Source: a virus
Virus record (IMG/VR): IMGVR_UViG_3300032299_001137
Location: 1-39,914 of that record
DNA length: 39,914 nt
Reading direction: 5' to 3' (one strand)
The translations under genes were made by a program, and so were the position numbers. The stretch's first letter is position 1. Every line of letters begins with the position of its first letter. The notes under the pieces were generated by a model. That model was not told the origin of the DNA, did not search any database, and saw only the letters and a list, made by a program, of their open reading frames with translations. This document shows, piece after piece, positions 7,599 to 32,312 of this stretch.

Positions 7599-10500
7599 TT
7601 AAACACTCGTGGTTAATGCTCTAAATTTAATCACTCCGCTAACAAAACCAGAATATGTAGGAGAAGTATATAAAACTTGTCCTGAAGAGTTTATGGTAAA
7701 ATAAACTCCAGAGTTATCTCCAATGGAACTTATAGAGATGAACCAATTAGATCCTTTTTGTATTCCTTTTATTGTAAACTCTTCGTATAGTGATGCAGTG
7801 GCAGTTATGCTAACGGAGGCTATTGCTTCAAACGATCTAACTATTGCGTTATTAAAAGAAAATCCTAACACTGTCTGAGTTAATTGATTTTGAGTAATAG
7901 AAAAAGAAGTTTCGCTTATATCTCCAGAAGATTTTAGGTTGTATCTAGCATCTCCTCTTTCGTCTGTATGATACTGAATATGATCATCCCCAGCTAAACC
8001 AGACAATAAACTGTGAGTAGTGGCTTCTCCTGCTGGAGTGTAAAGTTGAGTTCCTCTGAAGTCAACGTAATCTGCTCCATTTATATTCACAATTCTAGCA
8101 TCTATAGCATTAGCGTAGGTGTTAGTCTGGAATATTACTGTACCAATTGGCACAAATTCTGCAAAAGGAAGATCTGACAATGTGGTTATTTCAGTACTTG
8201 CGGCATTTCTCGCTGCAGAAACGCTATTATATTGATTTATACCTTGAATACCTATAATTTTATTTTCTATATCATTAGTAGCAAATAAATGTACTAGTAC
8301 GAAGTCGTTAGAAGAAACTTGGGTTAACTGCCAAGCCCCGCCTGTATATTGGTTATAAGGAAGTCTACCGTTAGCTCCAGTATATCCAGCAGAGCCGCTG
8401 TAAATAACAGGAAAATTATCAGCAGATTTCTTTCTCCACAATTGTCCTTGCCTAAATAATATTGGTATTTGTGTTTGAGCATTTATAACATGTAAAATAT
8501 CTTCATCTCTTATCGAACCAGAATCAGCCGTAAATTGAGCATGGGAATCTAGAGAACCATTCCCTATGGTAAATCCTTGTAGAGCTAATCCTGATAGATA
8601 TCTAGCACCAAGAACTGTATGTAGATAAGCTTGTGTAGCTCCGTCCATAGTTAAACCGTGGCGTTCTTCTGCAAAGTAAATGTAGCTATTAGTGTCCGTA
8701 TTCCAATAAAATAAAGAAACAAGAGCACTGTCTTCAAATAACGATGTATTAAAAATAGTAGTGTGGGATAAAACTCCTGTACTATTGTAGTATAAATAAT
8801 GAATACCTGCAGTAGGAGATGCTATCTGAATAGATTCTGCGGAAGATTTTGTATATTTTGTTCCCTTAACGTAAAACTGAAAGTTAGTTACTACTGGAGT
8901 TATAGTAAAGGTTACTGTATTTGTTCCCGAATTGTAAGACAAACCAAGTGTTGAATCTGTTCTATTTAAGAACCCTGTAGGCTCTTTCATGTCCTCGAAA
9001 GCATCTAAAGAAACACCAGATCCGCTTTGTAGTCTATCAGCTAGTTGATCAAGAGCTTCCTTTATGTCATCTGGAACAGGAGAAATCCAATCTAATGTGT
9101 CTGCCGGAGTATAATCTAAAATTGCATTTAATTGAGATACGTTGACAGCATCATTACTATCTGTGCCGTTTGCTACGTTTTTAATTTGATTAAAGTTTAC
9201 AGTAATGTAATCTCCATCTAAAGACAGCTTACCTCTAGTTCCAGTACCTTGTGGATTTCCGGTAGTTATGGAGATATCTCCAGAATCTGCAGCAACACCA
9301 GTACCTTTGATAAACGCATTAGCAGTTTTTATTGTAATATCACCAGAACTTATTTCTAAGTTAGTGGCAGTGTCCATATCTCCAGATTGACCTCTTGTTT
9401 CAAGATATACTTGTCCAGAAGTAAAACTCCCGTTAGTATTTCCGACAACCATAGGACCGTGAAAATGTATAGTCCCTCCACTTTGCCCTTCAGAAGCCCA
9501 CGATCCTATATTTCCTTGAGTTGAAGTAGTAGAACGGGATGGAACATATAAACTAGCATAGTTATCGTTAGCAGTATATTGCAAATGGATAAAATTTGTT
9601 AAGCTAGGATTTCTAACTTCTAATGAAGATTTTACTGAAGTGTTAGGCTCTCCTGTACCATTGTCAAATATACTAACCGCATCATTAACAGTTTCAGATG
9701 CAATATTAATTCTTTTAGCAGAAATATTTACATTACCTCTATCACCACTTCCTTCTGGATTTCCTGTTGTAATATTGATATCGCCAGTATCAGCGTTTGC
9801 ACCAGTTCCAGATACATAAGCATCTTCAGTCGAAATATTCACATTACCAGAATTAATTTCTGCATTTACAGAAGGGGTGATATAGTCTGTGCTATGAGCA
9901 ATAATATTAAAATCCCCACCACTAAATGATCCACCAGTTGATGTATATGCTTTTGTAGACTTTAAATTAAATGGACCACCGTTTTGATTATCTTGTCCCC
10001 AACCATTTATCGAAAATCCGTTCGTAGGACTTCCCTGAAAAATTCTTATTCCTACAGAATTATTTGCCTCTTCAGCATCATGAAGAACTTGAAAGGATGA
10101 TAAGCCTTGAGTATTTTGAACATTAAATACAGAAAACTGTCCTGAAGCAGCAGTAGTTGTAAGAAAAACTGTCGTATTTTGACCATTAAGTTCAATTGAT
10201 CCTCTACTACCAGTAGTACCACCTGTCTCTATTGTAATATTACCAGAGTTTCCTGCTGGTTGATATTTAGTTCTAATTGCAAAATTCGAAGTACTAACCG
10301 ATTCTAAGCTAACTCCCTCTGGAATTGCAGTTGCTACTAAATTATCTAGATTGGTATTAGCTTTATTGTCTACATTGACAGATACATAGTCCGTAACTTG
10401 AAGCCAACTACCCGGATAAGCTGGAGGTGGATAACCAGCTGCGCCAATGAAATTAATCATTCTAAACGAAGCACCATTATACATAACACCGTCACCGACA

Positions 10501-12274: not shown

Positions 12275-12538
12275 TTAATCCTTATTTACTTTTTTTGAAA
12301 AAGCCCTGCCAAAATATAAAGAGGCACAAATTATTAATAATTCAAGAGTATTATCCACATCTACTCCATCTACTATCTTAGTAAATTTGTTTATTAGCGA
12401 AAAAAAAGACAAGAAAAAAGATAACAATAATAGCGTTAAGGAAACACTAGGTTGCTTAGTTACAGGATCTCTTACGAATATTATAGGAAATCCGCTATCT
12501 TGCAGTTCTTTTAGCTTCTTTTTGAGTTTATTTACCAT
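12275..12538 (-). CDS. Small membrane protein, holin candidate
   Basis: This 87-residue protein has a basic N-terminus (MVNKLKKKLKEL), a conserved-looking FVRDPVTKQPSVSLT segment, a hydrophobic helix (about 32-48) and a second, weaker helix (about 64-79), then a basic tail. Size, two membrane helices and late-operon position suit a holin, but no experimentally defined holin family is recognised. ATG 12538 overlaps the previous stop. Its N-terminus resembles the RFxKLRxxL peptide of neighbouring proteins, without the Arg-Phe. Confidence 0.55.
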   Translation of the reverse strand: MVNKLKKKLKELQDSGFPIIFVRDPVTKQPSVSLTLLLLSFFLSFFSLINKFTKIVDGVDVDNTLELLIICASLYFGRAFSKKVNKD

Positions 12539-12777
12539 TTTTTACAGCTCCAGTATCGGGCTGAAAGTTTAGTATTATCTTGATCGCATTTGTGCCTAGC
12601 ACGAAAAGATTTACGCCTTGCTGGTATGTGTTTCTTTATCTTCATGTTTGGATCACCAAACCTTACAATCTTTTCCTGACCGTTTTCACAAGCTTTAACT
12701 ACGAATTTTTTACGTTCTCCGGGAGTTCTTCTAGGACTGTTACATCCTAAAGTGTCTCGTAATTTCTTAAATCTCAT
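12532..12777 (-). CDS. Small basic late protein, RRKSFRARHKCD family
   Basis: This 81-residue, strongly basic protein starts MRFKKLRDTLG. Its core, KKFVVKACENG...VRFGDPNMKIKKHIP then ARRKSFRARHKCD, and its C-terminus ARYWSCKKW, form a pattern I recall as recurrent in aquatic phages and unassigned in function. Three of its cysteines, with the nearby histidine, could bind a metal. The first nine residues match the start of the 13670-13858 product and the ends of two other small proteins here. I infer a capsid-interior or DNA-associated virion component from its charge and late position. Confidence 0.65.
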   Translation of the reverse strand: MRFKKLRDTLGCNSPRRTPGERKKFVVKACENGQEKIVRFGDPNMKIKKHIPARRKSFRARHKCDQDNTKLSARYWSCKKW

Positions 12778-13031
12778 TTTAAGCTTTTCCTTAATTTATT
12801 AAACCTAATCTTACTATATTGTCTGCCTTCTCTTGTTGCTTTATTTTTATCAGCTATTGCTCGTTTTTTTTGGGATGGTGTTAGTTCTGACCAAGTTTTA
12901 GGAGTATCTTTTGTAATACGTTTAGATGGACGGCATTTTGCATCATCTTTACCTTTATCGGAACCACATTCTACATATTTATTTCCGACTTTTTTTGTCC
13001 ATTTTTCTGAAAACCAGCGTTTAAGACTCAT
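12774..13031 (-). CDS. Small basic late protein, KRWFxEKW family
   Basis: This 85-residue basic protein begins MSLKRWFSEKWTKKVG, then has a YVECGS and DAKCRPSKR segment with two cysteines, a lysine-rich helix and the C-terminal peptide KIRFNKLRKSLK. The KRWFxEKW start is one I associate with small proteins of phages and large algal viruses, function unknown. The C-terminal peptide matches the N-terminal peptide of the next gene (MRFKKLRDTLG). SD GGAGATG lies at the very end of the HNH gene, which therefore sits exactly between two late genes without damaging expression of this one. Confidence 0.65.
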   Translation of the reverse strand: MSLKRWFSEKWTKKVGNKYVECGSDKGKDDAKCRPSKRITKDTPKTWSELTPSQKKRAIADKNKATREGRQYSKIRFNKLRKSLK

Positions 13032-13673
13032 TTATACATCTCCATTAATTTTAAAATGAGCACTTATTTTACTAATTTTTTTAAAAAACTCAGATACAGA
13101 ATATGTATTTTTCATAGAATTACACCAAGAACAACAAGGCACAGAATTTTCTAAAGTATATCCTTTATTATTATCAAGTCTATCTATTCCGTTGCAATTA
13201 TAAGTAAACTGAGAATATTTTTTATGCATTATTTTTATACTATCTTTATCTCCGCAATAATAGCATGAATTTTCTGAAATAGATTTAAAATCCGAATAAG
13301 ATAAAGAAAATTCTATTTTTCTTTTTTTAGCACTTGTTTTATATCTGCTAAACACTGAATTTTCCAAACTATTTTGAAGTTCTTTTCTGACATAGCATCC
13401 ACAAGATTTAGTTTTATTGTTGTTTAAATTAGCAACACAAACTTCTACTCGATTTCCGCATTTACAATCACAAGTATATTTTTTAGTTTGTTTGTTGTAA
13501 GCAACCACAGTTAAATATTCAATTGTTTTTCCTATCCATTTTGGAATGTTATTTTTATTCCTAAGTTTTTTTCTACAATCAATGCACTCATCACATTTAC
13601 CATCTGGTTTATTTTTATTGTTGTAAAATAAACTAGAGTCTTTATCAAATTTACAAACATAACAATGTTTCAT
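13032..13673 (-). CDS. HNH homing endonuclease
   Basis: This 213-residue protein carries CxxC knuckles near residues 4-7 (CYVC) and 30-33 (CDEC), a CDCKCG...SCGCY cluster near 68-92, a CYYCG knuckle near 137, and a C-terminal HNH-type core (GIDRLDNNKGYTLENS then CCSWCNSMK). Such proteins cut DNA at a recognition site and spread by repair copying; phages commonly carry free-standing forms between genes. It interrupts a run of very small basic late genes, starts with an ATGA overlap on the gene before it, and ends within the SD of the gene after it. It looks more AT-rich than its neighbours, consistent with recent arrival. No intron borders are visible. Confidence 0.85.
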   Translation of the reverse strand: MKHCYVCKFDKDSSLFYNNKNKPDGKCDECIDCRKKLRNKNNIPKWIGKTIEYLTVVAYNKQTKKYTCDCKCGNRVEVCVANLNNNKTKSCGCYVRKELQNSLENSVFSRYKTSAKKRKIEFSLSYSDFKSISENSCYYCGDKDSIKIMHKKYSQFTYNCNGIDRLDNNKGYTLENSVPCCSWCNSMKNTYSVSEFFKKISKISAHFKINGDV

Positions 13674-13858
13674 TTGTATTTTCCGCCTCTTTTCTTAAAT
13701 TGCCTAACAATCCATGCTGAGGAATATGCACTCGGATAATCATTGCCAAACTTAGCCCTCGCTTCTGACTTAACTCTTGAGTAGAGATTTTGATCTGCTG
13801 GAACTGATCCGTTAGAAGTCCTCCCTTGTAGTTTATCACGAAGTTTTTTAAATCTCAT
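13670..13858 (-). CDS. Small basic late protein, YPSAYxxAWIV family
   Basis: I start this gene at ATG 13858 (MRFKKLRDKLQG), not at an in-frame ATG at 13888, because GAGGAA is well placed before 13858 and the longer form would overlap the previous gene. The 62-residue product has a central LYSRVKSEARAKF segment, then YPSAYSSAWIVRQFKKRGGK, a pattern I know from small phage proteins (possibly the family called DUF5872, not certain). The RFKKLRDKL start is shared with 12532-12777. Function unknown; a DNA-binding or internal virion role is inferred from charge and context. Confidence 0.65.
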   Translation of the reverse strand: MRFKKLRDKLQGRTSNGSVPADQNLYSRVKSEARAKFGNDYPSAYSSAWIVRQFKKRGGKYK

Positions 13859-13859
13859 T

Positions 13860-14036
13860 TTATTCCTCAGAGCACTCTTTGCAGCCAAGTTTCTTTTTAA
13901 GCTTTTTAAAGCGTTTTTTACCCACGTTACCTTTAGTGTATTCTTTTGCTTTTTCTGGAGATAATCCGGGTACTTTTAAAGAACCTGACTCTACTGCTTT
14001 CATAAATTTAAATTGTTGTTGTGATTTAGCAGGAAT
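13860..14036 (-). CDS. Small DUF3008-like protein using an ATT start
   Basis: The frame encodes PAKSQQQFKFMKAVESGSL, close to the conserved N-terminus MPAKSKAQQRF of DUF3008-type phage and bacterial proteins (recalled). No ATG, GTG or TTG exists between an upstream in-frame TAG and this conserved segment. ATT at 14036 lies 6 bases after a perfect AGGAGG, so I take it as the start, giving 58 residues. The C-terminus GKKRFKKLKKKLGCKEC carries the RFKKL peptide shared with neighbours. Alternative: the internal ATG at residue 12, which would lose the conserved part. Confidence 0.6.
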   Translation of the reverse strand: MPAKSQQQFKFMKAVESGSLKVPGLSPEKAKEYTKGNVGKKRFKKLKKKLGCKECSEE

Positions 14037-14049
14037 ACCCCACCTCCTG

Positions 14050-14340
14050 TTATTCTATAATATTAGATTCTAATAAAGCTTTTAATTCTTCCAAACTTGG
14101 GCAGGAGATATTTTTAAATCTCCATCCAGACTGATCTCCAGCTTCTACTAAAGCCGGATTCCAGTTATCTCCAGAATCTAAAAGCTCTTGCTTATCTTGT
14201 AAAAACAAGCTAACTGCAAGTGCAATATCTGAAAGCTTTGGTAATTCTGGAATAATAGGCAATTCTTCGGCTAGTGCTGGAGTTTGCTCCGACACAAGCG
14301 TAAATTCTGCTTCAATATCTGGTTTAATTTCTTCGTTCAT
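14050..14340 (-). CDS. Acidic late protein of unknown function
   Basis: This 96-residue acidic protein has a proline-rich segment (EELPIIPELPKLSD), a helical stretch, and a C-terminus GWRFKNISCPSLEELKALLE. The CPSLEEL ending resembles small phage tail-assembly or fibre-chaperone-like proteins, but the match is weak. SD AGGGAT supports ATG 14340. It lies between the 802-residue tail protein and the small basic cluster. Its negative charge contrasts with the basic neighbours and could suit a chaperone role, which is speculative. Confidence 0.55.
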   Translation of the reverse strand: MNEEIKPDIEAEFTLVSEQTPALAEELPIIPELPKLSDIALAVSLFLQDKQELLDSGDNWNPALVEAGDQSGWRFKNISCPSLEELKALLESNIIE

Positions 14341-14348
14341 ACTAATCC

Positions 14349-16757
14349 CTATTTAATTTTTTGAATTGATCCAGTTAAATAAACTTCATTATCTCCGAAC
14401 GAAGATACTACACCTAACGGCTCTCCAGCAGCATTTGCCCTTTGCTGTACTTCAATTGTAGTTTGTGATGCTACAGTAAATACTCCACTAACTCTACAAG
14501 TAGATAAGTCATTTTGACCTCCGCTTGTATTATTATCTTGTGCAGTAGTCCCAACTACAAGAGTTGTTGAGTTTGTAACATCATAAATTCTAATTTTAGA
14601 TATAAGATTTCCTGTTGTATTTGATCTAATTATTCCACCACTAAAATCAGTTTGATATGTACCGGCTGATAAAACTATTTGACTATTAGTTCCTCCAGCT
14701 CCAGTAAAGGATGCAGAATTTAAAATAATACCAGAAAAATCATTTAGTGTATTTAATCTTCTAGCTGCATATACTGAACTAGTATTTTGTGGAGATGTTC
14801 CACTTGCGTACTGCTCGCTTAGCGTTGCAATTCTAGGCTGAAGCAAAGGAACGCCAGTTAAAGCTGGATTCTTGCTTGCGTTGATTACGAGGTAGCCTGA
14901 TGATTGTGCTCCACCGTCGGAAAAATTAAATCTAGATTGAGAAATTGCAGTTCCATCCGTAAGACCGGCATCTACAATCAAAACCCCTGTATTTTCATTA
15001 TAATCTTTAAATTGAGCACCTTTTGATTCAGCAGAAGAAACAAGATAGTAATCTAAATTACCAGCAGTTACTTTTCCAGCACTCTTATACAAGTCTAAAG
15101 TTCTACCCTTCAATCCCTTACCAATCTGAATAGCAACCACCGCTGGCTGAGCTGCTGTACTAGCTGCGTTATATGCTCTAGCATAAAGCAAGATACCATT
15201 CGTATTCATATTCTCTGTAGATTGAGTTGGAGCTGTCGTTGTCTGCGTTCTCGTATTTGTGTTAGCAGCATACGTAAACGTAATGAAAGTTCCAACAGGA
15301 GCATTTTGCAATGTGCTGAGCGTGTAAGCTGAGCTTGAGGCATACGTTAAGGATGCTGTATCTGTGCTAAAAGTTTCTGGAGCTGTAAGTATTTGGTCGG
15401 AGAGTGCTGTGGCTGTACAATATACAGATACATTGTTTATTCCATTAGAGTCTGTTCTAAATTCAAAAAAATCACCCACAGACACTTGTTCGCTGTAGCT
15501 GATAGCTGCTGTGTAACTATTTGCTTGCATTGTAGTACTGGCTACTGTCGTTGTTCCATTTTTAATTAATTGTATGTCCCTAACACCACTTGCATTACTT
15601 CTGGCTGTATAGTTTACATCAATAATACAAGTTTTTAATGCTGTAATTCTACCACTAGAATAAGAAAGAATTCCTTTATTTGTATTTTTACTTACTGTAA
15701 AGTTAGTTATAATAGCCGCTGCTGCTATTGAACCGTTAGTTAAGGAAATATTTTCATAATCAGGTTGAGGATTGTATAATGAAGTTTGTCCTAGTTGAAT
15801 ATCGTCAAAGTTTAATACTTTAGTAGAATTTGATACAGCGACTTTAAATCCAATTCTAATAGAAGAACACGTAGTTGGTATAGTTACATATCCTTTAAAT
15901 ACTTTTGTACTAGAAGATCCTTCTAAGAAAAAACTAGTTGGTATTACTGTAGAGTTTGTTACATTATACACAACCACTTCTATATCATTATTATTCCCAT
16001 TATAATTAAAAGGAAAACTTAAAATACAATCTTGACCTCTAAATCTATTAGCTACTGGTTGAGCTGGAGATGCAAAGTAATCGTTTAAGGAACCAGTTGC
16101 TTGAGTATATTTATATGAAGACAATCCATTAAGAGGAGATACAGTTTCTTTTGCAAAAGTTCCAGAGATAGTTCCTCCTCCTAAAAAAGAAGAATTATTT
16201 CCAGTAGACCAATTAGATATCAATTCTGTACCATCTAATACAAATACAGTATCTGAGGTTGCAGAACCAGATCCGACACTAACTAGATTTCCATCTACTA
16301 CTTGATACATTGACTTAGTATCTGTTGCAAAACATAATTGTCCATTACCATTAGGAGGGGTAAAAGAAGCCGCATATGATAATAAGTTAGTATAAGTATT
16401 TTGCTTAACATCTAATCTAGCTGGAGTAATCACAGAACCATTGGTTAATGTACCTCCAGACTCATCAACTTTTGTATTTGCATTACTCTGTATTTCTTCT
16501 AAAGCCAAGTCTAATTCAGTAGCAGTAACTCCAGTAGCAGACACTTGTATAGTGTTCTCTGCAGTAGAGATAGTCTTATTCGTCAAGTATTGACCTTGAG
16601 AACTAGTGATTACTTCCCTAACGGCTCCTTCCACGTACGTTTTAATTCTAGCAGAAGACGAGTTAAGGAATAGTGATCCTTCTTCGTTGTCCGAAACGTC
16701 AGAGGATTCTCCTCTGAGTATTATGCCTTTTGTAAAACGATTTGGTATGTTTGACAT
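14349..16757 (-). CDS. Large virion/tail protein (802 residues)
   Basis: Residues ~1-100 form a module shared with the 624-residue protein at 17145-19019: both have LxNKTIST or VITNKTIST followed by NTIQVSA and TELDxALxEI. After it come beta-rich segments: a carbohydrate-module-like domain near 165-330, containing FAKETVSPLNG and VLNFDDIQLGQ, and a C1q-like stretch near 340-450 (IQLIKNGTTTVAST, GDFFEFRTDS). The rest is threonine/serine-rich. No enzyme motif is visible. The shared N-terminus suggests that two different proteins attach to the same virion site. SD AAGG supports ATG 16757. Fibre or appendage protein is my best reading. Confidence 0.7.
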   Translation of the reverse strand: MSNIPNRFTKGIILRGESSDVSDNEEGSLFLNSSSARIKTYVEGAVREVITSSQGQYLTNKTISTAENTIQVSATGVTATELDLALEEIQSNANTKVDESGGTLTNGSVITPARLDVKQNTYTNLLSYAASFTPPNGNGQLCFATDTKSMYQVVDGNLVSVGSGSATSDTVFVLDGTELISNWSTGNNSSFLGGGTISGTFAKETVSPLNGLSSYKYTQATGSLNDYFASPAQPVANRFRGQDCILSFPFNYNGNNNDIEVVVYNVTNSTVIPTSFFLEGSSSTKVFKGYVTIPTTCSSIRIGFKVAVSNSTKVLNFDDIQLGQTSLYNPQPDYENISLTNGSIAAAAIITNFTVSKNTNKGILSYSSGRITALKTCIIDVNYTARSNASGVRDIQLIKNGTTTVASTTMQANSYTAAISYSEQVSVGDFFEFRTDSNGINNVSVYCTATALSDQILTAPETFSTDTASLTYASSSAYTLSTLQNAPVGTFITFTYAANTNTRTQTTTAPTQSTENMNTNGILLYARAYNAASTAAQPAVVAIQIGKGLKGRTLDLYKSAGKVTAGNLDYYLVSSAESKGAQFKDYNENTGVLIVDAGLTDGTAISQSRFNFSDGGAQSSGYLVINASKNPALTGVPLLQPRIATLSEQYASGTSPQNTSSVYAARRLNTLNDFSGIILNSASFTGAGGTNSQIVLSAGTYQTDFSGGIIRSNTTGNLISKIRIYDVTNSTTLVVGTTAQDNNTSGGQNDLSTCRVSGVFTVASQTTIEVQQRANAAGEPLGVVSSFGDNEVYLTGSIQKIK

Positions 16758-19608: not shown

Positions 19609-20823
19609 TTAAGCAATTCCAGTATAGACTAATTGATGACCGATCTTGATACAGAATAGAGCTTGGTTAGTATAACAACGGATACCAACACCAGCGTTAT
19701 TCTCAAGAAGATGGAAGAAATCTTCATTGCTAAGAGGGTTTTTGAAAGTAAGGTCAGTAGAACCAACACGAACAAACTGCTCATGATTAATAGCATAAGC
19801 ATAACCTTCTTTTACGAAGATAGAAGCTATGATTGTCATTTTACCGTTTTGAGAAAAGAACTCAAGAGCTTCTGAGCCATTTTCTGCTTTAGAAGACTTA
19901 TAAGATACATCAAAACGACGAGAACCAGCCTGTTCTGTCATAAGATCAGACCAAGTTTTTGGAGATACATACACAGTAACGTCAGACTGAAGACCTTTTG
20001 CAACTGGCTTAGCAAGACCTGTAGCTAGTTTTTTAAAGTCAAGAGCACCACCTACTGAATGAGAGTTACCCTTCCATAGAGAATATTGAGAAGCAGAGAT
20101 ACCGAATAGAGATCCAGTATTAGTGATGATCTTATGAAGACCAGCCATTTCCTTACCTTTAGATCCGTATTCAAATACACTTACTGTACCAGCAGCAGAA
20201 GCACCGGCTGGCATAGCATCAACAGTTACTGTCTTAGCATCGAAATCAACAGTAACTACTTTACAATCTCCAAGAGACTGATCAGCAGAATTGAAAAGCT
20301 CAATTCTCATATTTTCAGCTCCTCCCCATACTCCAGATGACCACTCACCTGCAGAGATAGAAAGAACATTACCGGAAGCTGTAGCAGTAGCAAGTCCAGA
20401 CTGTCCGTAGAAAAGACGGATTTCAAGTTTTTTAGCCATAGAATCCATCATAGCTTGGAAGATATACTTAGTAGCTTCTTCAAAAGCTCTTTCACCAGCA
20501 GAATCAGAAGCAAACATTGTATCAAAAGCCAATGCTGATCTGAGTACCATCTGATAACCACGAATTGAAGCTTGCTTAATTACACCAGAAATAGGTGGGT
20601 TAAGAGCAAAAGCTCCTTCATCTGGCTCAGCAAAGCTTACGCCATGCTCCATACCAAGAATTACTGATTGGTTATAATCAGCACCCGGACGCTTTTCTTT
20701 CTTAACGAATTTAATAGCGTTAAGAAGTTTTGTTCCATCTGGGATTAAGTTTTCAAGTTTACCATCGTAAACTTTTTTGTACAAACCGTTAAGGTTGTCT
20801 AATGTGTTAGCTGTTCCACTCAT
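19609..20823 (-). CDS. Major capsid protein
   Basis: This 404-residue protein lies where a major capsid protein is expected, after portal and scaffold genes, and is followed by a strong terminator. Features typical of HK97-fold capsid proteins include the helical N-terminal arm, an ASIRGYQMVLRSALAF segment near residue 85, a long helix (ERAFEEATKYIFQAMMDSM) near 110-130, and a C-terminal domain with VTVYVSPKTWSDL and FVKEGYAYAINHEQFV. An Ig-like or insertion segment may lie near 150-220. Its codon use is less AT-biased and more regular than neighbours, as expected for the most abundant virion protein. SD AAAGGA supports ATG 20823. Confidence 0.85.
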   Translation of the reverse strand: MSGTANTLDNLNGLYKKVYDGKLENLIPDGTKLLNAIKFVKKEKRPGADYNQSVILGMEHGVSFAEPDEGAFALNPPISGVIKQASIRGYQMVLRSALAFDTMFASDSAGERAFEEATKYIFQAMMDSMAKKLEIRLFYGQSGLATATASGNVLSISAGEWSSGVWGGAENMRIELFNSADQSLGDCKVVTVDFDAKTVTVDAMPAGASAAGTVSVFEYGSKGKEMAGLHKIITNTGSLFGISASQYSLWKGNSHSVGGALDFKKLATGLAKPVAKGLQSDVTVYVSPKTWSDLMTEQAGSRRFDVSYKSSKAENGSEALEFFSQNGKMTIIASIFVKEGYAYAINHEQFVRVGSTDLTFKNPLSNEDFFHLLENNAGVGIRCYTNQALFCIKIGHQLVYTGIA

Positions 20824-21280: not shown

Positions 21281-21292
21281 ATATATTTGTTA
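21281..21292 (-). promoter_or_regulatory. Late-promoter motif before the capsid unit
   Basis: Read leftward: TAACAAATATAT followed by TTGAG, the same continuation as the motif before the terminase unit. The first TAA is the stop codon of the scaffold gene, so the promoter and the end of the gene share bases. Confidence 0.6.
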
Positions 21293-22213
21293 AACACCTA
21301 GAGATTTAAAAAAGTCCTTAGCTTTGATTTTTTTAACTTCGTCACTTTTTTTACTGGAAGAACCAGTGTCTTGTGTTTTAAGTGGTGCTTTTGGAGCACT
21401 ATCTTTAGGCTTAACTGATTGAATTTGCTTGTTTCTTATTTGACGAATTCTTTCTTTAGAAACTAACATTTCTACTTCGTCGTCATTTAGTACACCAAGC
21501 ATTTCAGATAGATCTTTCTTATATTGCTGTTTTACAAAAGGAATTATATCATTAATCGATAGATTGATCCCATTAGCGTAAGCTATATAAGCTAAGTCTG
21601 CTATTTTCTTAGAAATATAAGTAGATTTTGGTAGTTGACCAATTTCAATTGCTTGTACAATTTCATTTTCTAATTCAATAGCGGCTTCTTGTTCAAGTCT
21701 AGCCTGTTCTTGTTCTCTTCTTTCTTCTTCTATAGCAGCTTTTTCAGCAAGAAGTGCTTCGTACTTTTTAGCCAGTTCTTCTTTTTCTTTTTGCTCTGGA
21801 GTTTTCTGACTCTCTTCTAAATCTTCTTTTAGAATAGCTTCAGCCAATTGTCTTTTTTGTTCTTTACTAAGATTAAACTCAGGATTCATTATTACCGAAA
21901 GAGGATTGCTAGTAAACTGCTCTAAAAATTCAGAAACATCTTCTTGAATTTCTTGTAATTGTTTTGCAGTAATTGCTCTTTCTTGAAAAGCTTGATGAGC
22001 AGCTTTTTCCATTTGTAAAGCTTTTGAGATTCTTTCTTTGTCTCTAAGATTTACTTTTTCTTTAATTTCTTTACCGTTTACTTTAAGTACGAACTCTTCA
22101 ATCTGCTCTTCCGTAGGACTAGCAGATGCTTCTGTTTCCATAGATTCTTGATCTAAATTTACGTCTTGAGAATCTGTTGATAAATCGCCTACTTCTGATG
22201 TGTTTTCTGACAT
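21290..22213 (-). CDS. Scaffolding protein
   Basis: This 307-residue protein is very acidic at its start and lysine/glutamate-rich and helical in the middle (about residues 130-190, with EEERREQEQARLEQEAAIEL), and has a basic C-terminus ending KKIKAKDFFKSLGV. Long charged coiled coil, low aromatic content and position directly before the capsid unit are typical of phage scaffolding proteins; the basic C-terminal helix is where many scaffolds bind capsid protein. No protease motif is visible. SD AAAGG supports ATG 22213. Its stop codon is the first triplet of the next late-promoter motif. Confidence 0.75.
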   Translation of the reverse strand: MSENTSEVGDLSTDSQDVNLDQESMETEASASPTEEQIEEFVLKVNGKEIKEKVNLRDKERISKALQMEKAAHQAFQERAITAKQLQEIQEDVSEFLEQFTSNPLSVIMNPEFNLSKEQKRQLAEAILKEDLEESQKTPEQKEKEELAKKYEALLAEKAAIEEERREQEQARLEQEAAIELENEIVQAIEIGQLPKSTYISKKIADLAYIAYANGINLSINDIIPFVKQQYKKDLSEMLGVLNDDEVEMLVSKERIRQIRNKQIQSVKPKDSAPKAPLKTQDTGSSSKKSDEVKKIKAKDFFKSLGV

Positions 22214-22278: not shown

Positions 22279-22293
22279 TATGTACATTTGTTA
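22279..22293 (-). promoter_or_regulatory. Late-promoter motif before the scaffold unit
   Basis: Read leftward: TAACAAATGTACATA, identical over 15 bases to the motif before the isolated zinc-ribbon gene at 32919-32933. Its first TAA is the stop codon of the preceding gene (22291-22983). Confidence 0.65.
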
Positions 22294-22983
22294 TTTGTAA
22301 CCCATTATTTTCTTTCTTCTTTCCATTTCATTTCTGTAGTCAAATTTGTTGTCACCTAACTCTACATCTGGAGATTCTTGCTCTCCTAAATTATCTTTTT
22401 CATTTAGTATTTCATATACATCTTTTCCAGCTAGAGCTATATCAGACAAAGGAGTAGGATCTACTGCGGAAGCTGCTTCTAATGCTGCTCCAACCTTATC
22501 TCCTCTTTCTAAAGCCTCTGCGGAAGATGCTGCACCTAGCCCAGCTCCTATAATTGGAATAGCCTTTGTAGCTCTTTTGCCCAGTGCTCCAAGTATTCTT
22601 TTAAATTTACCCATTCTCTGCATTTTTGCTACTTCTTTACCAACTGGAGAATTTGGGGAGTGTAGATTAGTAACTTTCTCATCAAACATTATTGGAGCAT
22701 TTGGTGGATATTTTTTCATCATTTGTTTATTTTTTACAAAATCCTCTCCCGACATATCATCGGTAGGATTTGAAGCTAAATTAGGCTTCATGTCTATAAC
22801 TTTAGTCTTATTGTCATCTTTTTCTTGTAAATGCTTTTCTAACATTTCAGCAAAATCGTCCATTCCTTCGTCAAACTCTGACGCTCCTTCTGCATCCCTG
22901 AGAGGTTGATCTTTATATTTTTCAGACATTGATGCACTGGCTTTTTTAGAGATTATTCTACTAGGGTTTATAGACGTTTTCAT
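22291..22983 (-). CDS. Probable internal head protein
   Basis: This 230-residue protein is charged and probably disordered over its first 125 residues. A hydrophobic glycine/alanine-rich module follows (about 127-190: FKRILGALGKRATKAIPIIG, GDKVGAALEAASAVDPTPLS), then a charged tail. The same module ends the next gene upstream (22992-23903: FRRLLSILG, GDAMGAGLNLASAIDPTG). Amphipathic glycine-rich helices of this kind could cross or disturb membranes. Between portal and scaffold, an internal or ejected virion protein is likely (inference). SD AAAGGAAC supports ATG 22983. Confidence 0.6.
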   Translation of the reverse strand: MKTSINPSRIISKKASASMSEKYKDQPLRDAEGASEFDEGMDDFAEMLEKHLQEKDDNKTKVIDMKPNLASNPTDDMSGEDFVKNKQMMKKYPPNAPIMFDEKVTNLHSPNSPVGKEVAKMQRMGKFKRILGALGKRATKAIPIIGAGLGAASSAEALERGDKVGAALEAASAVDPTPLSDIALAGKDVYEILNEKDNLGEQESPDVELGDNKFDYRNEMERRKKIMGYK

Positions 22984-22991
22984 AAGTTCCT

Positions 22992-23903
22992 TTATTTTTT
23001 CTTTTTGTAGTTTTTTAATTGATCTAACATTATATCCGAAGGACTTGGACCACCGGGCATGGCAGAGTATTTATCTTCTAACATTAACTTTTCAATTTCT
23101 TCTGGATCTTTTATAGCTAATCTATTCTTTACTTCTAAGGCAGTGTCTGATATTCCTGTAGGATCTATAGCAGAAGCTAAATTCAAACCAGCACCCATTG
23201 CATCGCCAGATTTCAGAGAATATCCTGCAGCAATTGAAGTCCCTACTGGACCTAGTATAGACAATAATCTTCTGAATGGACTTGGGGCTTTTAGATTCAA
23301 TTTTTTACTTTGTTTTTTAATTTCTTTAATAACTTTGTCATTTTCTGGTAAATCTTTTACTTCCCTAGCTAACTCGGAGGTTTCGTAAATATCTCCATAA
23401 TGATGCCCGGGTTTAAAAGGATCGTCAGTTTTGGAATAAAATCCGGGTCTAATTAAATCGTCTACTGAGTGCTTAAGCTCATGTCCAGCAGAGCTAATTC
23501 CTTGTAATTTACCTAAATCGTCCCACTTATTCCTTACTACAACTTCTTTAGGGTTTTTTCTACTTTTTCCCGTATCTACGTTAGTTTGATATCCTAACAA
23601 CCCTCTTAGATTTTTTGCAAATTCTTTTGATTTTGGATATCTTGTTTCTCCGGGATCTACTACGTATCTGTCTCCGGGAGTTGGATCATTTTGATATACG
23701 TCATTTAATATATCTTCTAGATTTTTAGAAAGATTAGCTCCTGACTTTTCGTATTTTACGGAACCTAATGCTTTATCAATTAAATCACCCGGTTCATACC
23801 CTAATTCGATTGCTTTTCTTAGCATCTCTTCTGATGTTACGGTAGGATTATTTGCTACATAAGTTATTAATTTAGAAATCCCTGCCGCATCTGCTTTTTT
23901 CAT
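22992..23903 (-). CDS. Probable internal head protein with zincin motif
   Basis: This 303-residue protein contains AGHELKHSVDDLI (HELKH at 141-145), which fits the HExxH zinc-protease signature; candidates for a third ligand are H167, H168 or E174 downstream. The C-terminal part (about 210-265) is the hydrophobic module shared with the neighbouring 230-residue protein. Lying between portal and scaffold, it could be a prohead protease, or a virion protease delivered with the DNA. The usual phage prohead proteases are serine enzymes (U9/U35 or ClpP type), so a zincin here would be unusual. Activity is not proven: the motif is short and the third ligand uncertain. Confidence 0.6.
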   Translation of the reverse strand: MKKADAAGISKLITYVANNPTVTSEEMLRKAIELGYEPGDLIDKALGSVKYEKSGANLSKNLEDILNDVYQNDPTPGDRYVVDPGETRYPKSKEFAKNLRGLLGYQTNVDTGKSRKNPKEVVVRNKWDDLGKLQGISSAGHELKHSVDDLIRPGFYSKTDDPFKPGHHYGDIYETSELAREVKDLPENDKVIKEIKKQSKKLNLKAPSPFRRLLSILGPVGTSIAAGYSLKSGDAMGAGLNLASAIDPTGISDTALEVKNRLAIKDPEEIEKLMLEDKYSAMPGGPSPSDIMLDQLKNYKKKK

Positions 23904-23905
23904 AT

Positions 23906-25918
23906 CTATTGATTAGGCACTGAGGTGGTTGGTAAATTTTCAAAAGGTTCTGGTGGAGTTGCTGGTTTAGGAACTCCCGGCATCATTTGACCTTGAGTTT
24001 GTTCCGACCCTTCTGCTACCTGAGCTATAGGAGACTGACCCTCTGAATTTTGTTGTGGTTGATTTACAGTTTCCGGAGCTGGAGCCATTGCCGGATTTGG
24101 AGGAAGTTGTTGTTGATTTGTCATAATTAATACAGCAGGATCTGTACTTCTTGCAAATTCAATATGCTCTTGTAAGTGCGCAAATATCACAGCACTTTTT
24201 TCTTCATCTAATCTGATATCTATATCATTTAATATAGTTCTATGCCTTAATATATGCTCTTTGTGATCGTCAATTACCAATGCTGGAACTGCTGTTCCTT
24301 TCATAAGCCTTTCATTTTCAGCTTGTATTAAGTTTGACTGATCTACTGGACTTTCCATCATCCCATCTAATCTTCCAGTATTAATAACCTGAGCATATTG
24401 CTGTATCGAGAATTCTTCAGGCTTCATTTGCATTAACTGTTCTGCCATCTGCACTCTTCCGGCAGTGGTACGAGCTAGAGGATTGCCAACATCTACAATT
24501 ACTCTATTAATCTGATCTATGTCAGTGCCTTTAAACTCTACTAAGTATTGCTTATTATTAACACCTACAATAGATGCAACTCTTGGTGCAGTAGCATAGT
24601 CTTGTAGTATTTCTAACACAGCTACTCCCAAATCCTCTACTAATTGAACATATTGATTTTGAAGACCTGATTGAAATTGGATAGCCATGGACTGAACTAA
24701 AGCTAGAGAGTTTCCTGATCTTAGATTTTGTGCTGGATCTGGTGTTCCTCTTGTTACGGAGTTAATACCAGATAATTGTTCCATCTTACCTTCTAGAATA
24801 CTTAAAAAACTAAAAGTCTCTTGAGAGGTTCCTAGTAGATTTAATGGTTCTGGTTTTTCTGTTCCCTGAATAATATTTAATCCACCACCAAGATTCGTAA
24901 TGTCTATATTAGAGCCTGATCTTACAAATAAGTTCTGTGTTGCAAAAGCTATATTGTTTGACATTATGGCAGAATATAGATGGTTGATACCTTCCTGCAA
25001 AGGTAGTAAGTCAAATAGATTAGAATAGCCAAAAGCTGTTCCTAATATCTCATTTGGACTCATTCTAAAAATAGGAATTCTTCTATATGGCAAAGCTTGA
25101 TCGTGAATAATTATGTCTTCTGCTAAAAATACAAGTTCTCTGCCTTCTGGCATAGCGTCTGTTTTTTTATGATACATTGTCCACACTTCAACGTCATCAG
25201 ATTCCACTTTTCTAAATACTTGCAAAGAGTATCTATCTTTTGAAGTTTTAGTATCTAACGCTAGTATTTTTTCTTCAAATTCTGGGTACTTAGCAGCCAA
25301 GTCAAACTTATTCTTGTAAGTTCTTATTAGTAACCAATCGTGATTATTATCTTCTCTATTAACGTCAAATACTACGTCGAAAGGTGACAAGTTTGTAAAC
25401 TTCAAATCCCCTTCGTGTATTTTTTCTCCAGTTTCCTCATCTTCGTCTACGCTTTTTCCAGCAGTAGCGTCCCATTCAATCTTTACATAACCAGCACCTA
25501 GTACTACCGCTAGTTCTACTGCCTTATTTATGTATCGTTCTAGACGTTTTTCACGCATGTAATAGTCTAATAGACCATTCGCTAGAGTTACTTGTGCGTT
25601 TGTCTTATAATCTCCATTAGCAGCTCTAGCCTCCATAGAAGGACGACTGGAAGTAGTCATAACGTACATGTGTTGTGCTAAGTTTCTTATATGGTTTACT
25701 GGTAATTGAGCAAGTTCTCCTTGTTCTCCAGCAAAAGTGATAGTATGTCCGGAATTTGTGTCGGTATAATATGCACCGTGGTAGGTTGACCAGCACGTTC
25801 TTAGTTTTTCTAAGTAGCCATTTGTGGTAAGAGTATCTTTCCAGTCCGTAGCTTTCTCTAACAGGACTGAAGCTGTATCTTTTCCATCTCTAGCTGCAAA
25901 ATATGTTAACTTAGCCAT
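23906..25918 (-). CDS. Portal protein
   Basis: This 670-residue protein follows the large terminase and precedes head genes, as portals do. The N-terminal half contains LPVNHIRNLAQHMYVMTTSSRP and the segment ELAVVLGAGYVKIEWDATAG, typical of portals of podovirus-like or large-portal type; the middle has NEILGTAFGYSNLFDLLPLQ and the LSGINSVTRGTPDPAQNLRSG stretch common in this family. The C-terminal ~70 residues are proline/glutamine-rich and low in complexity. It forms the dodecameric ring for DNA entry and exit. SD GAGGG supports ATG 25918. Confidence 0.85.
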   Translation of the reverse strand: MAKLTYFAARDGKDTASVLLEKATDWKDTLTTNGYLEKLRTCWSTYHGAYYTDTNSGHTITFAGEQGELAQLPVNHIRNLAQHMYVMTTSSRPSMEARAANGDYKTNAQVTLANGLLDYYMREKRLERYINKAVELAVVLGAGYVKIEWDATAGKSVDEDEETGEKIHEGDLKFTNLSPFDVVFDVNREDNNHDWLLIRTYKNKFDLAAKYPEFEEKILALDTKTSKDRYSLQVFRKVESDDVEVWTMYHKKTDAMPEGRELVFLAEDIIIHDQALPYRRIPIFRMSPNEILGTAFGYSNLFDLLPLQEGINHLYSAIMSNNIAFATQNLFVRSGSNIDITNLGGGLNIIQGTEKPEPLNLLGTSQETFSFLSILEGKMEQLSGINSVTRGTPDPAQNLRSGNSLALVQSMAIQFQSGLQNQYVQLVEDLGVAVLEILQDYATAPRVASIVGVNNKQYLVEFKGTDIDQINRVIVDVGNPLARTTAGRVQMAEQLMQMKPEEFSIQQYAQVINTGRLDGMMESPVDQSNLIQAENERLMKGTAVPALVIDDHKEHILRHRTILNDIDIRLDEEKSAVIFAHLQEHIEFARSTDPAVLIMTNQQQLPPNPAMAPAPETVNQPQQNSEGQSPIAQVAEGSEQTQGQMMPGVPKPATPPEPFENLPTTSVPNQ

Positions 25919-29421: not shown

Positions 29422-30443
29422 TATCTTTAAACAGGTTTATAGCAGACCGTGAATCAGAAGATTCTGAGACAATTGAAAACTCTGCAGATAAAATTTGGTT
29501 TAAATTTGAAAGTCCGTCCGGATTTTTCTACAGTCCTTTTATAAAAAGTAAACAAGTAGTTAAATATTTTGAAAATGCAGAAGTTTTAGCTAATTCATTA
29601 GGTAAAAAAGATGACTATGAAATACAAACGAATAATCTTGCTTTAGTTTATGAGAAAAATAATCCGAACTCCTCACCGGAAATTCTTCCAAATGGAGTAT
29701 ATTTTCATGAATATGGAGGAGGAGGGCTTCCTGAAAGATTGTCTCCAATGGATTTAAGAGATGATAATTATGTAAATATAATGAATAGTTTAGATTCTTT
29801 AGATGAAAGCATCGAGGATTTTTCTAACAATAAAGAACTATATGAAGACACTAAAACTAACTATAAACTAGGAGTCTTATTATTTGGTCCTCCGGGAACT
29901 GGAAAAACCAGCTACATGAGAGAATTTATTAGAAAGAAAAAAGATGCTGTAGTTATTTTCATGGATGCGGTTCCTTCTAGAAAATTCTTACAAAAATTAG
30001 AGTCTTCCACTAAGAATAGATTAAAAATATTAGTATTCGAAGAAGCAGTTTCTTTGCTAGAAGACAGTGATGACATTAGAAGTATGTTAGATTTCCTAGA
30101 CGGATCTAAGTCAATTTCCAATGCTATATACTTCTTATCTACTAACTACCCAGAAGCTATTCCTGAAAACGTAGTTAGAAATGGAAGGATTGATTTGTTT
30201 GTAAGAGTTGACTTTCCAAATATAGAAGCAAGAAAAAAACTAATTAACTTATATTTAAAAAGAGAAGCTACTGAAGATGAGCTTAAATTGACAGAAAATA
30301 TGCCAATTGTTGATATTCGTGAAATTTGTTTTTGTCATAAGAAAACCTTTAAATCTCTACCAGAGTGTGCTAAAATAATTGAAGAAAAAAACAAAATGCT
30401 GAAAAAACATTTTGGTAAATCGAGAGAAATTAGACTTAATTAA
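29418..30443 (+). CDS. AAA+ ATPase, Bcs1/FtsH-like core
   Basis: This 341-residue protein has a phage-specific N-terminal domain (1-145) and one AAA+ core: Walker A GPPGTGKT (157-164), Walker B ILVFEE (204-209), sensor 1 asparagine in STNYPEAIPE (N243), and an arginine-finger region NVVRNGRIDLFVRV (251-264). The Walker B first acidic residue is glutamate (E208) in place of the usual aspartate. The C-terminus is a basic helix. The family is an unfoldase/remodelling type; the substrate is unknown. It lies before the ribonucleotide reductase and after a helical protein to which it is translationally coupled. Confidence 0.8.
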   Translation: MISLNRFIADRESEDSETIENSADKIWFKFESPSGFFYSPFIKSKQVVKYFENAEVLANSLGKKDDYEIQTNNLALVYEKNNPNSSPEILPNGVYFHEYGGGGLPERLSPMDLRDDNYVNIMNSLDSLDESIEDFSNNKELYEDTKTNYKLGVLLFGPPGTGKTSYMREFIRKKKDAVVIFMDAVPSRKFLQKLESSTKNRLKILVFEEAVSLLEDSDDIRSMLDFLDGSKSISNAIYFLSTNYPEAIPENVVRNGRIDLFVRVDFPNIEARKKLINLYLKREATEDELKLTENMPIVDIREICFCHKKTFKSLPECAKIIEEKNKMLKKHFGKSREIRLN

Positions 30444-30461
30444 TATCTAAAGGTGGTGGAA

Positions 30462-32312
30462 GTGAATAAGTCGAATAAACTATTATCCGAAATAGTTGCC
30501 TATAGAACCTATGCTAAGCACTTAAAGGCGATAAATAGAAGAGAAAGTTTAGAAGAGACTATAAACAGAAACCTTACCATGTACTTAGAAAAATATCCAA
30601 AGTTAAGCAGGGATATAATTAAAGCATTTAAACAGGTCCACGACTTTAATGTAATGCCATCAATGAGATCATTACAATTTGGAGGAGAGGCTATTCTAAG
30701 AAACAATGTAAGATTATTCAATTGCTCCTTTGCCAACATCACATATCCTAGAATTTTCGCAGAATCGTTATTTCTATTACTATCTGGAACAGGATTTGGA
30801 TATTCTGTACAGAAGCATCATATTGAGCAATTACCAAGCATTAGAACTCCAAAAGAAGAAGGAATTTACGTAGTTCACGATTCTATTGAAGGATGGGCGG
30901 AAGCACTTAATCAACTCATGTCTGCTTATTTTTTTGGAGCAATTAGACCTATTTTTGATTTTTCTAGAGTTAGACAAAAAGGATCATATTTAGTAACTAC
31001 TGGAGCAAAAGCCCCCGGACCAGAACCTCTTAAAAATATGCTTGTTAAGGTTGAGGAGATGTTAAGATCTTCTCAAGGTAGAAAATTAAAATCTTTAGAA
31101 GTTCATGATGTTATATGTTTAGTTGCTGATTGTGTTCTATCTGGAGGAATTCGTAGAGCCGCTTTAATATCTCTTTTTGATAGAAATGATACAGCAATGT
31201 TAACTTCTAAACATGGCAACTGGTGGGAAAAGCACCCTCACAGAGCTAGGGCTAATAATTCAGCAGTACTTCCTAGACAAGATACGACTTTTGAAGAGTT
31301 TAAAAATGTATACGACATGTGTATTGCTTCAAATGCTGGGGAACCCGGATTTTTTTGGACCAATAATGTAGAATGGGGAACAAATCCTTGCGCAGAAATC
31401 GGGTTACAATCAAATCAATTTTGTAACCTAACAACTACTAATCTAACAGGTATAAAAAATGAAAAAGACTTTGAGAATAGAGTCTACGCTGCTTCTTTGC
31501 TTGGAACGTTGCAAGCAGGTTTCACAGATTTCCCATATCTCTCCGAGAAATGGAGAACTGTTACGGAAAACGAGGCACTTATTGGGTGTAGCTTCACAGG
31601 AATTGCAGACGCTAGTGGACTCACAGGAGATCAATTACAAAAGGCAGCGAAACTCGTACTCGAAGTCAATGAAAAATATTCAAAAAAAATTGGAATTAAT
31701 CAAGCAGCAAGAGCAACAGCAATTAAACCAGAAGGAACAGCCAGTTGTGTACTCGGGTCCAGTTCAGGAATTCACGCTAGACATTCAGAGTATTATCTCA
31801 GACGAGTCAGAATGAATAAAGATGATGAACTTACTAGATACTTATCTAGAACAATACCGGAATTGATAGAAAATGATATTTTTTCTTCAAGTGGCGTAGT
31901 AGTTACTATTCCTCAAGAATCCCCAGCAGGAGCCATAACTAGACATAAAGAAACTGCCACAAATCTTTTCGAAAGAGTCAAACACTATTACAATAATTGG
32001 GTATTACCGGGGCATAGGACTGGGGATAATACTCATAATATTAGCTGCACTATAAATTACAAACCAGAAGAAGCTGCTTTGTTATTAGAGCAATTATGGA
32101 GAGATAGATTTGAGTATGCTGCGGTAAGTCTATTGCCGTTTTCAGATGCTGTATATCAACAAGCTCCTTTTGAAGATTGTAATAGAGAGACATTTGATAA
32201 ATACAATAAAATAGTACAAGATATTGATTTGACTAAAATTCTAGAATTAGAAGATAATACTAATAGAGTAGAACAAGTCGCTTGCAGTGGCGGTCTTTGT
32301 GAAATTACCTAA
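30462..32312 (+). CDS. nrdJ: B12-dependent ribonucleoside-triphosphate reductase (class II)
   Basis: It reduces ribonucleotides to deoxyribonucleotides using adenosylcobalamin. GTG 30462 after AAAGGTGG is the likely start (in-frame GTG 30453 is the alternative); numbering below is from 30453. The cysteine pattern matches Lactobacillus leichmannii RTPR: FNCSF (C91), NPCAE (radical C313, with N311 and E315), QFCN (C324, 11 residues on, as in C408/C419), and the C-terminal redox pair C611/C616 in ACSGGLCEIT. At ~616 residues it is shorter than the ~740-residue bacterial enzyme, so some peripheral segments are lost. It supplies DNA precursors independent of oxygen; dUTPase lies downstream in the same arm. 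Confidence 0.92.
   Translation: MNKSNKLLSEIVAYRTYAKHLKAINRRESLEETINRNLTMYLEKYPKLSRDIIKAFKQVHDFNVMPSMRSLQFGGEAILRNNVRLFNCSFANITYPRIFAESLFLLLSGTGFGYSVQKHHIEQLPSIRTPKEEGIYVVHDSIEGWAEALNQLMSAYFFGAIRPIFDFSRVRQKGSYLVTTGAKAPGPEPLKNMLVKVEEMLRSSQGRKLKSLEVHDVICLVADCVLSGGIRRAALISLFDRNDTAMLTSKHGNWWEKHPHRARANNSAVLPRQDTTFEEFKNVYDMCIASNAGEPGFFWTNNVEWGTNPCAEIGLQSNQFCNLTTTNLTGIKNEKDFENRVYAASLLGTLQAGFTDFPYLSEKWRTVTENEALIGCSFTGIADASGLTGDQLQKAAKLVLEVNEKYSKKIGINQAARATAIKPEGTASCVLGSSSGIHARHSEYYLRRVRMNKDDELTRYLSRTIPELIENDIFSSSGVVVTIPQESPAGAITRHKETATNLFERVKHYYNNWVLPGHRTGDNTHNISCTINYKPEEAALLLEQLWRDRFEYAAVSLLPFSDAVYQQAPFEDCNRETFDKYNKIVQDIDLTKILELEDNTNRVEQVACSGGLCEIT

Follow-up and report, generated by a model that had tools for sequence, protein, structure and literature searches.

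We describe a short basic peptide, [KR]-F-x-[KR]-[LI]-[KR]-x-x-[LVI], that is probably a portable address tag, functioning at either protein end, by which one clade of phages loads proteins into the prohead. Comparisons of sequences establish that the peptide recurs, that it occupies protein ends, that it is portable between cores and that its carriers are located in the head module. The window, by which we mean the whole stretch of DNA analyzed, is a 39.9-kb IMG/VR virus record. Four of its small basic proteins, designated M1 to M4, carry the peptide; they are listed here with their tags, as read from the sequence, and with one intervening gene.

13860-14036, (-) strand: M1, small basic MPAKSK-family protein of 58 aa with an ATT start (phrog_16759)
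13887-13913, (-) strand: tag RFKKLKKKL, M1 residues 42-50 of 58, near the C-terminus
13670-13858, (-) strand: M3, N-terminal half of DUF5872 with an N-terminal tag (PF19197 positions 1-39, 2.3e-9)
13829-13855, (-) strand: tag RFKKLRDKL, M3 residues 2-10
13032-13673, (-) strand: HNH/endonuclease VII-like gene between M3 and M2 (phrog_1035, 1.5e-15)
12774-13031, (-) strand: M2, C-terminal half of DUF5872 with a C-terminal tag (PF19197 positions 55-114, 3e-14)
12780-12806, (-) strand: tag RFNKLRKSL, M2 residues 76-84 of 85
12532-12777, (-) strand: M4, Tlr6F/DUF5754-like, its tag a separate N-terminal helix (phrog_7595, 5.3e-20; DUF5754 weak, 0.069; model helix 2-9)
12748-12774, (-) strand: tag RFKKLRDTL, M4 residues 2-10

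The sequence-only reading had placed RFKKLRDTL and RFKKLRDKL at N-termini and RFNKLRKSL and RFKKLKKKL at C-termini, and it was right on all four. RFxKL[RK]xxL occurs in exactly these proteins, is terminal in each, and is found in none of the other window proteins. Across 20,000 shuffles of the four basic proteins it appeared once, in one protein; its recurrence in the window is beyond chance. The four had been described as lying in a row. They do form a set of small basic tagged genes, but the HNH/endonuclease VII-like gene at 13032-13673, which is outside the tag system, intervenes. The further claim that the cores belong to different families holds for M1 and M4 and fails for M2 and M3, which are the two halves of one family, DUF5872. 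Both score above the curated cut-off of PF19197 (27.5), with 54 bits for M2 and 38.3 bits for M3, and they cover different halves of the profile. M4 scores below the curated cut-off of PF19058 (Tlr6F/DUF5754; 13.6 bits versus 27.4) and matches phrog_7595 strongly, and we infer from its conserved residues and from phrog_7595 that it belongs to the Tlr6F/DUF5754 group. The M1 module also opens phage proteins annotated as virion structural (phrog_22033/25121, “virion structural protein”). M1 has no ATG, GTG or TTG at its proper start; it has ATT behind an AGGAGGT site. This start after a strong ribosome-binding site is seen in the window (AGGAGGTGGGGT-ATT, 13860-14036) and in L128/G002 near 25048 (CGGAGGTGGGTT-ATT). 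G002 shares it though its capsid protein is only 43% identical, and other relatives have ATG; the conserved rare start may hold down expression of M1.

Three looser versions of the peptide had been suggested, and we set all of them aside. The membrane protein at 12275-12538 begins NKLKKKLKE, which we do not regard as a tag because the aromatic residue is missing and relatives do not retain the stretch. FKRILGALG and FRRLLSILG, from two proteins at 22-24 kb, are both internal, and FRRLLSILG aligns as internal sequence among the relatives of 22992-23903.

We compared 17 related contigs and another 80 loci, the latter identified through a capsid-protein profile; gene calls were simple ORFs. Relatives found with M1-M4 mostly share the capsid protein of the window, at 39-88% identity, and stretches from 24 of them were compared. 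M1-M4 keep the peptide at their own end in all relatives, and its sequence drifts around [KR]-aromatic-x-[KR]-[LI]-[KR]-x-x-[LVI]. Examples are KKRFAKLKEKV at the C-terminus of M1, VRFSKLKKRL and similar strings at the C-terminus of M2, MAFEKLKKKV and MSKFKRLKKTL at the N-terminus of M3, and MRFKKLRDTL and MKKRWSRLKEKL at the N-terminus of M4. No isolate of the clade was found among the phage records searched with M1, M2 and M4. A scan for the pattern MRFKKLRD returned one real match, the others being a dUTPase-like protein and a 14-residue stretch; the dUTPase-like protein (L181, 5709-6125), whose contig is unrelated, has the N-terminus MRFKKLRDV by chance or convergence. A scan of viral contigs for RFxKLKEKV found, beyond the M1 family, mainly one prophage-borne family (MSDLETKAKENK...) with the string near the C-terminus, which we judged a coincidence.

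The late gene block of the window lies on the (-) strand and comprises the portal, IP1, IP2, scaffold candidate and capsid protein genes, tail genes and the small basic genes. Its head genes, with one further peptide, are as follows.

23906-25918, (-) strand: portal protein (phrog_156, 4.4e-22)
22992-23903, (-) strand: IP1, putative internal head protein with HExxH, untagged in the window (a 55% identical homologue in L250 is tagged)
22291-22983, (-) strand: IP2, putative internal head protein
22294-22320, (-) strand: RRKKIMGYK of IP2, a second shared C-terminal peptide (subclade peptide RKKxxGY[EK])
21290-22213, (-) strand: scaffold candidate, from its position before the capsid gene (C-terminus KDFFKSLGV)
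19609-20823, (-) strand: major capsid protein, used to define the clade (phrog_14242, 1.6e-12)

Contigs of the G002, G005 and G007 type have M1, M3 and M2 between the portal and scaffold genes, and M1 is there in others too; in the window and its closest relatives, by contrast, tail genes surround the small tagged genes, which are outside the portal-capsid block. We built a position weight matrix from the M1-M4 tags only and then applied it to other genes. Among the 17 contigs, terminal matches scoring ≥8 were present in 17 of 163 head-region genes and in 25 of 922 genes elsewhere (P=3.8e-5). In the 80 loci, after removal of M1-M4-like genes, terminal matches scoring ≥10 were present in 42 of 555 head-region genes and 8 of 579 downstream genes (P=2.9e-7). 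Shuffling gave an expectation of 2.1 head-region and 0.8 downstream matches for these loci, so that the head-region excess is about twenty-fold. The two sets partly overlap and the loci share descent, and because related loci are not independent these P-values overstate the case. Beyond M1-M4, a tagged head gene is present in only 32 of the 80 loci. With M1-M4 set aside, the tag is concentrated between the portal and capsid genes. The sequence-only reading asked whether the peptide stays terminal on unrelated cores in related genomes; it does, and this block is its main location.

Taking the 17 contigs and 80 loci together, some 20-30 different cores bear the tag at one terminus or the other. 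Clustering with phmmer gave 30 clusters, an upper bound; because remote homologues may be split among them, we consider 20-30 the fair statement. The tagged cores include Tlr6F/DUF5754, both DUF5872 halves, DUF6321, HExxH proteins, an ADP-ribosyltransferase and lysozyme-like proteins. Within the portal-capsid block, the tag is carried by the DUF6321 protein (PF19846, 3e-30), a GLWDNIRANK protein and an LKGIAF protein, and larger proteins carry it C-terminally. A 433-residue protein of G013 is a polyvalent-type ADP-ribosyltransferase (ART-PolyVal, PF18760, 1.5e-12) and ends RSFKKLKKLFEEN. HExxH proteins have the tag at the C-terminus in L247, L250, L251, L254, L278 and L279 and at the N-terminus in L302 and L320. 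Lysozyme-like proteins have it at the C-terminus in L253, L299 and L320 and at the N-terminus in L264, a weaker example because the C-terminus of that protein is also tag-like. The block also encodes 36-41-residue proteins made up of sequence like the capsid protein N-arm (SNTFQSLKPIYKESYSD) and, after it, the tag (G008 64029-64139, G009 46916-47029, L302 6673-6795, L320 3780-3902 and L323 7437-7544); they could be adaptors that join cargo to the capsid.

The peptide has been gained or exchanged on a single core between close relatives. IP1 of L250 is 55% identical to IP1 of the window along its length and then continues with NKFKKIKEKVR, whereas KKKK is the end of the window protein. In L248 this core has the ending KRKKRLGYE and in L249 KMKKRMGYE, a second type of ending that it has in common with the neighboring IP2 proteins (RRKKIMGYK in the window). 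The subclade therefore uses two C-terminal peptides, exchanged on one core. Neither IP1 nor IP2 of the window has a tag of the RFxKLRxxL type, and the second peptide, RKKxxGY(E/K), is found on IP2 of the window (22294-22320) and on IP1 and IP2 proteins of its nearest relatives L248, L249 and L252. M1 of L294 adds the tag HKFKRLKKMW after the normal M1 ending KGKKLPEKV; the M1 tag could be partly derived from the native KLPEKV end. Terminal placement on many unrelated cores, together with addition and exchange on one core, gives good support to the original idea of a sorting tag moved between proteins. As the AlphaFold model of IP1 reaches a mean pLDDT of only 55, its putative metallopeptidase assignment comes from the HExxH motif, which is invariant across eight relatives.

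Outside the clade, homologues of the same cores do not carry the tag. M1 of phage 201phi2-1 has KKKLPEHV at the tag position and M1 of 121Q has KLPNKV. Cyanophage P-SCSP2 encodes M3, M2 and DUF6321 proteins between its scaffold and capsid genes, all untagged; its M3 and M2 homologues (Prochlorococcus phage P-SCSP2, L240, 5573-5743 and 6001-6261) end alike, in RKSLRVA and RSSLKIA, which is perhaps the label of another lineage. In L040, five neighboring proteins start with MKLLLENWREYLNEE or nearly so, and in one of the five the M2, M3 and M4 cores are fused, with linkers that are acidic. M3 or M4 proteins of L006, L008 and L010 start MESTGKFExLFLKLLE. These two types of N-terminus resemble the capsid-targeting sequence (CTS) of T4, and gene content suggests that the contigs bearing them are T4-like; CTS-like peptides are present on the same cores in L039, L040 and L006-L010. 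MRxYYKxGGK opens M4 and another core in L041, L043, L051, L054, L056 and L068, immediately downstream of the gene for a putative head protein. Other candidate shared labels, by group, are MRxYYKxGGK, MKLLLENWREYL and RKKxxGY. The sequence-only reading held that unrelated peptides at these ends of homologues would speak against a tag. Such peptides do exist outside the clade, and within it the peptide keeps its end; we do not count them against the tag, since a lineage-specific tag on shared cargo predicts them.

Across 52 distinct tag sequences the codons vary, with five codons for Leu5 and six for Arg1. This free synonymous variation rules out a DNA or RNA element, and selection therefore acts on the peptide. 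Its hydrophobic moment is high for a helix (z=3.4) and not for a strand (-0.5), and in the M4 model (pLDDT 86) the tag forms its own helix ahead of the core. A fold search with that model found nothing below E 1 in the PDB. We propose that the tag is a short basic amphipathic helix that has an aromatic residue at position 2, Leu at 5 and Leu/Val at 9 and a flexible connection to one end of its cargo. Its docking site would be a component unique to assembling heads, with the scaffold or the inner face of the capsid protein as the likeliest candidates and the portal as a possible one. Docked cargo would then be trapped inside the head and delivered with the DNA. Such cargo would combine enzymes of several hundred residues (ADP-ribosyltransferase, HExxH and lysozyme-like) with a small basic pool (Tlr6F, DUF5872 halves, DUF6321 and MPAKSK). 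We favor the scaffold or capsid protein as the docking partner because T4 provides a precedent for CTS-driven loading. The C-terminus of the scaffold candidate, in which DFF is conserved in most of the clade, may serve as a model for the same site ([DE]FF, often with SLG), this being a resemblance only. Processing of the tag appears unlikely. A Peptidase_S78 search whose control worked had no match in 12 contigs; Peptidase_S77 was also found in none of the 12, in a search whose control was silent; and the ClpP-like genes present in five of the 12 are all outside the head block.

Other readings of the peptide account for part of these observations. Instead of labeling capsid cargo in general, it might signal docking or ejection at the portal vertex or injection apparatus, or act as a membrane-active helix during entry; we consider this unlikely. 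The tag is a basic amphipathic helix, and tagged lysozyme-like, HExxH and glycine-rich hydrophobic-segment proteins, typical of ejection, are encoded beside the portal gene. However, it is also carried by many small basic proteins, a type abundant in T4 heads (PMC9026906), and contigs that seem T4-like fuse the same cores behind CTS-like peptides. The strong positive charge of the window proteins (net +10 to +18 for the four) would suit a nucleic-acid-binding tail, with packaging through DNA contact and no sorting receptor. We find this rather improbable: the conserved positions are hydrophobic (F2, L5 and L/V/I9) and helically spaced, tags are also found on larger proteins with glutamate-rich C-terminal regions (L247 and L251), and a tail of this kind would not need a fixed sequence.

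ClpX degrons can be located at either protein end. Because the window encodes ClpX and some relatives encode ClpP, a degron or adaptor signal for a phage ClpX/ClpP-type unfoldase-protease is worth considering, if very improbable. ClpX homologues are present in the window (33987-34925) and in G001, G017, G020 and G023, and ClpP-like proteases are present in five relatives. Neither ClpX nor ClpP was found in the large tag-bearing contigs G015 (63 kb) and G026 (71 kb), records that may be incomplete and in which host ClpXP could serve. A degron would also serve little purpose in the late head-module genes in which the tag is concentrated. The window ClpX homologue has no evident zinc domain; Clp sites in relatives, with the ClpP-like genes outside the head block, are G001 8274-8777, G008 30243-30620, G009 14111-14575, G017 52246-52740 and G023 47750-48238. 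Chance or shared ancestry, as basic low-complexity ends or as one ancestral protein split in four, is barely credible. In its favor are the small size and basic character of the four window proteins, the division of a single family between M2 and M3, and the partial similarity of the native M1-family end KKLPEKV. It is already contradicted by the shuffles, the opposite ends, the roughly 30 core clusters, the gain or exchange on one core and the free synonymous codon variation.

A tag that directs cargo into the prohead has its closest parallel in the CTS of T4 IPI-IPIII and Alt, also a short terminal peptide common to different cargo that includes small basic proteins and an ADP-ribosyltransferase (PMC9026906). 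For IPIII, ten N-terminal residues are enough to carry a protein into the core, and the cargo of T4 heads comprises Alt and small basic proteins in hundreds of copies (PMC9026906). The T4 signal differs in being an N-terminal propeptide of 10-19 residues that is removed by gp21. Like the T4 signal, the clade tag is a short peptide on otherwise different cargo (about 30 core clusters), but it is N- or C-terminal depending on the protein. Its basic RFxKLRxxL sequence is also unlike that of the T4 internal-protein propeptides. Because position and sequence both differ, we do not regard the tag as a member of the T4 kind. The best reading of these sequences is that it works like a capsid-targeting sequence in an unrelated setting, apparently uncleaved. 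P1 DarB likewise has a terminal signal sufficient for head entry, and P1 internal proteins are delivered to the host (PMC9024508); that case concerns one 250-kDa protein, with no consensus among Dar N-termini (PMC9024508), whereas the clade tag is one consensus on many families. Polyvalent phage proteins have ADP-ribosyltransferase, metallopeptidase and lysozyme domains predicted to be head-packaged, which recalls the ART-PolyVal protein of G013 and the HExxH and lysozyme-like cargo; they are defined by domain fusions, and the available portions of that account describe no shared terminal sorting peptide (PMC5512222). We found no description in the open-access literature of a consensus tag at either end of many cargo families.

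The Tlr6F/DUF5754, DUF5872 and DUF6321 proteins of giant viruses, polinton-like viruses and phages are of the same core families as the clade cargo. Tlr6F is widely conserved, with a function that is not known (PMC4642659). In this clade the three families are tied to a head-cargo tag, which suggests a packaged role. On balance slightly doubtful, though close to even, is the broader proposal that many tailed phages share one pool of head cargo (Tlr6F, DUF5872, DUF6321, MPAKSK, ADP-ribosyltransferases and metallopeptidases) to which each lineage adds its own terminal label, here one that is uncleaved and used at either end. If it is true, the same cores in giant and polinton-like viruses would be packaged internal proteins too. 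Capsid-targeting peptides have already been demonstrated in T4 and P1; an apparently uncleaved tag used at either end on dozens of families would provide a sequence rule that predicts packaged or injected phage proteins. It would also offer a first functional handle on Tlr6F, DUF5872 and DUF6321 in phages, giant viruses and polinton-like viruses. The short peptide itself is a candidate means of loading proteins into phage heads.

Two features of gene organization were noted in the clade. Putative homing endonucleases of differing type lie between the two DUF5872 halves in the window (13032-13673), G005 (12507-13163) and G007 (29517-30209); those of the window and G005 are HNH-type and that of G007 looks like GIY-YIG. 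The capsid protein gene is in two pieces in G007, G008, G009, G011, G012, G013 and G015, split near the same point in most of them, and endonuclease-like ORFs often lie between the pieces, as introns would give.
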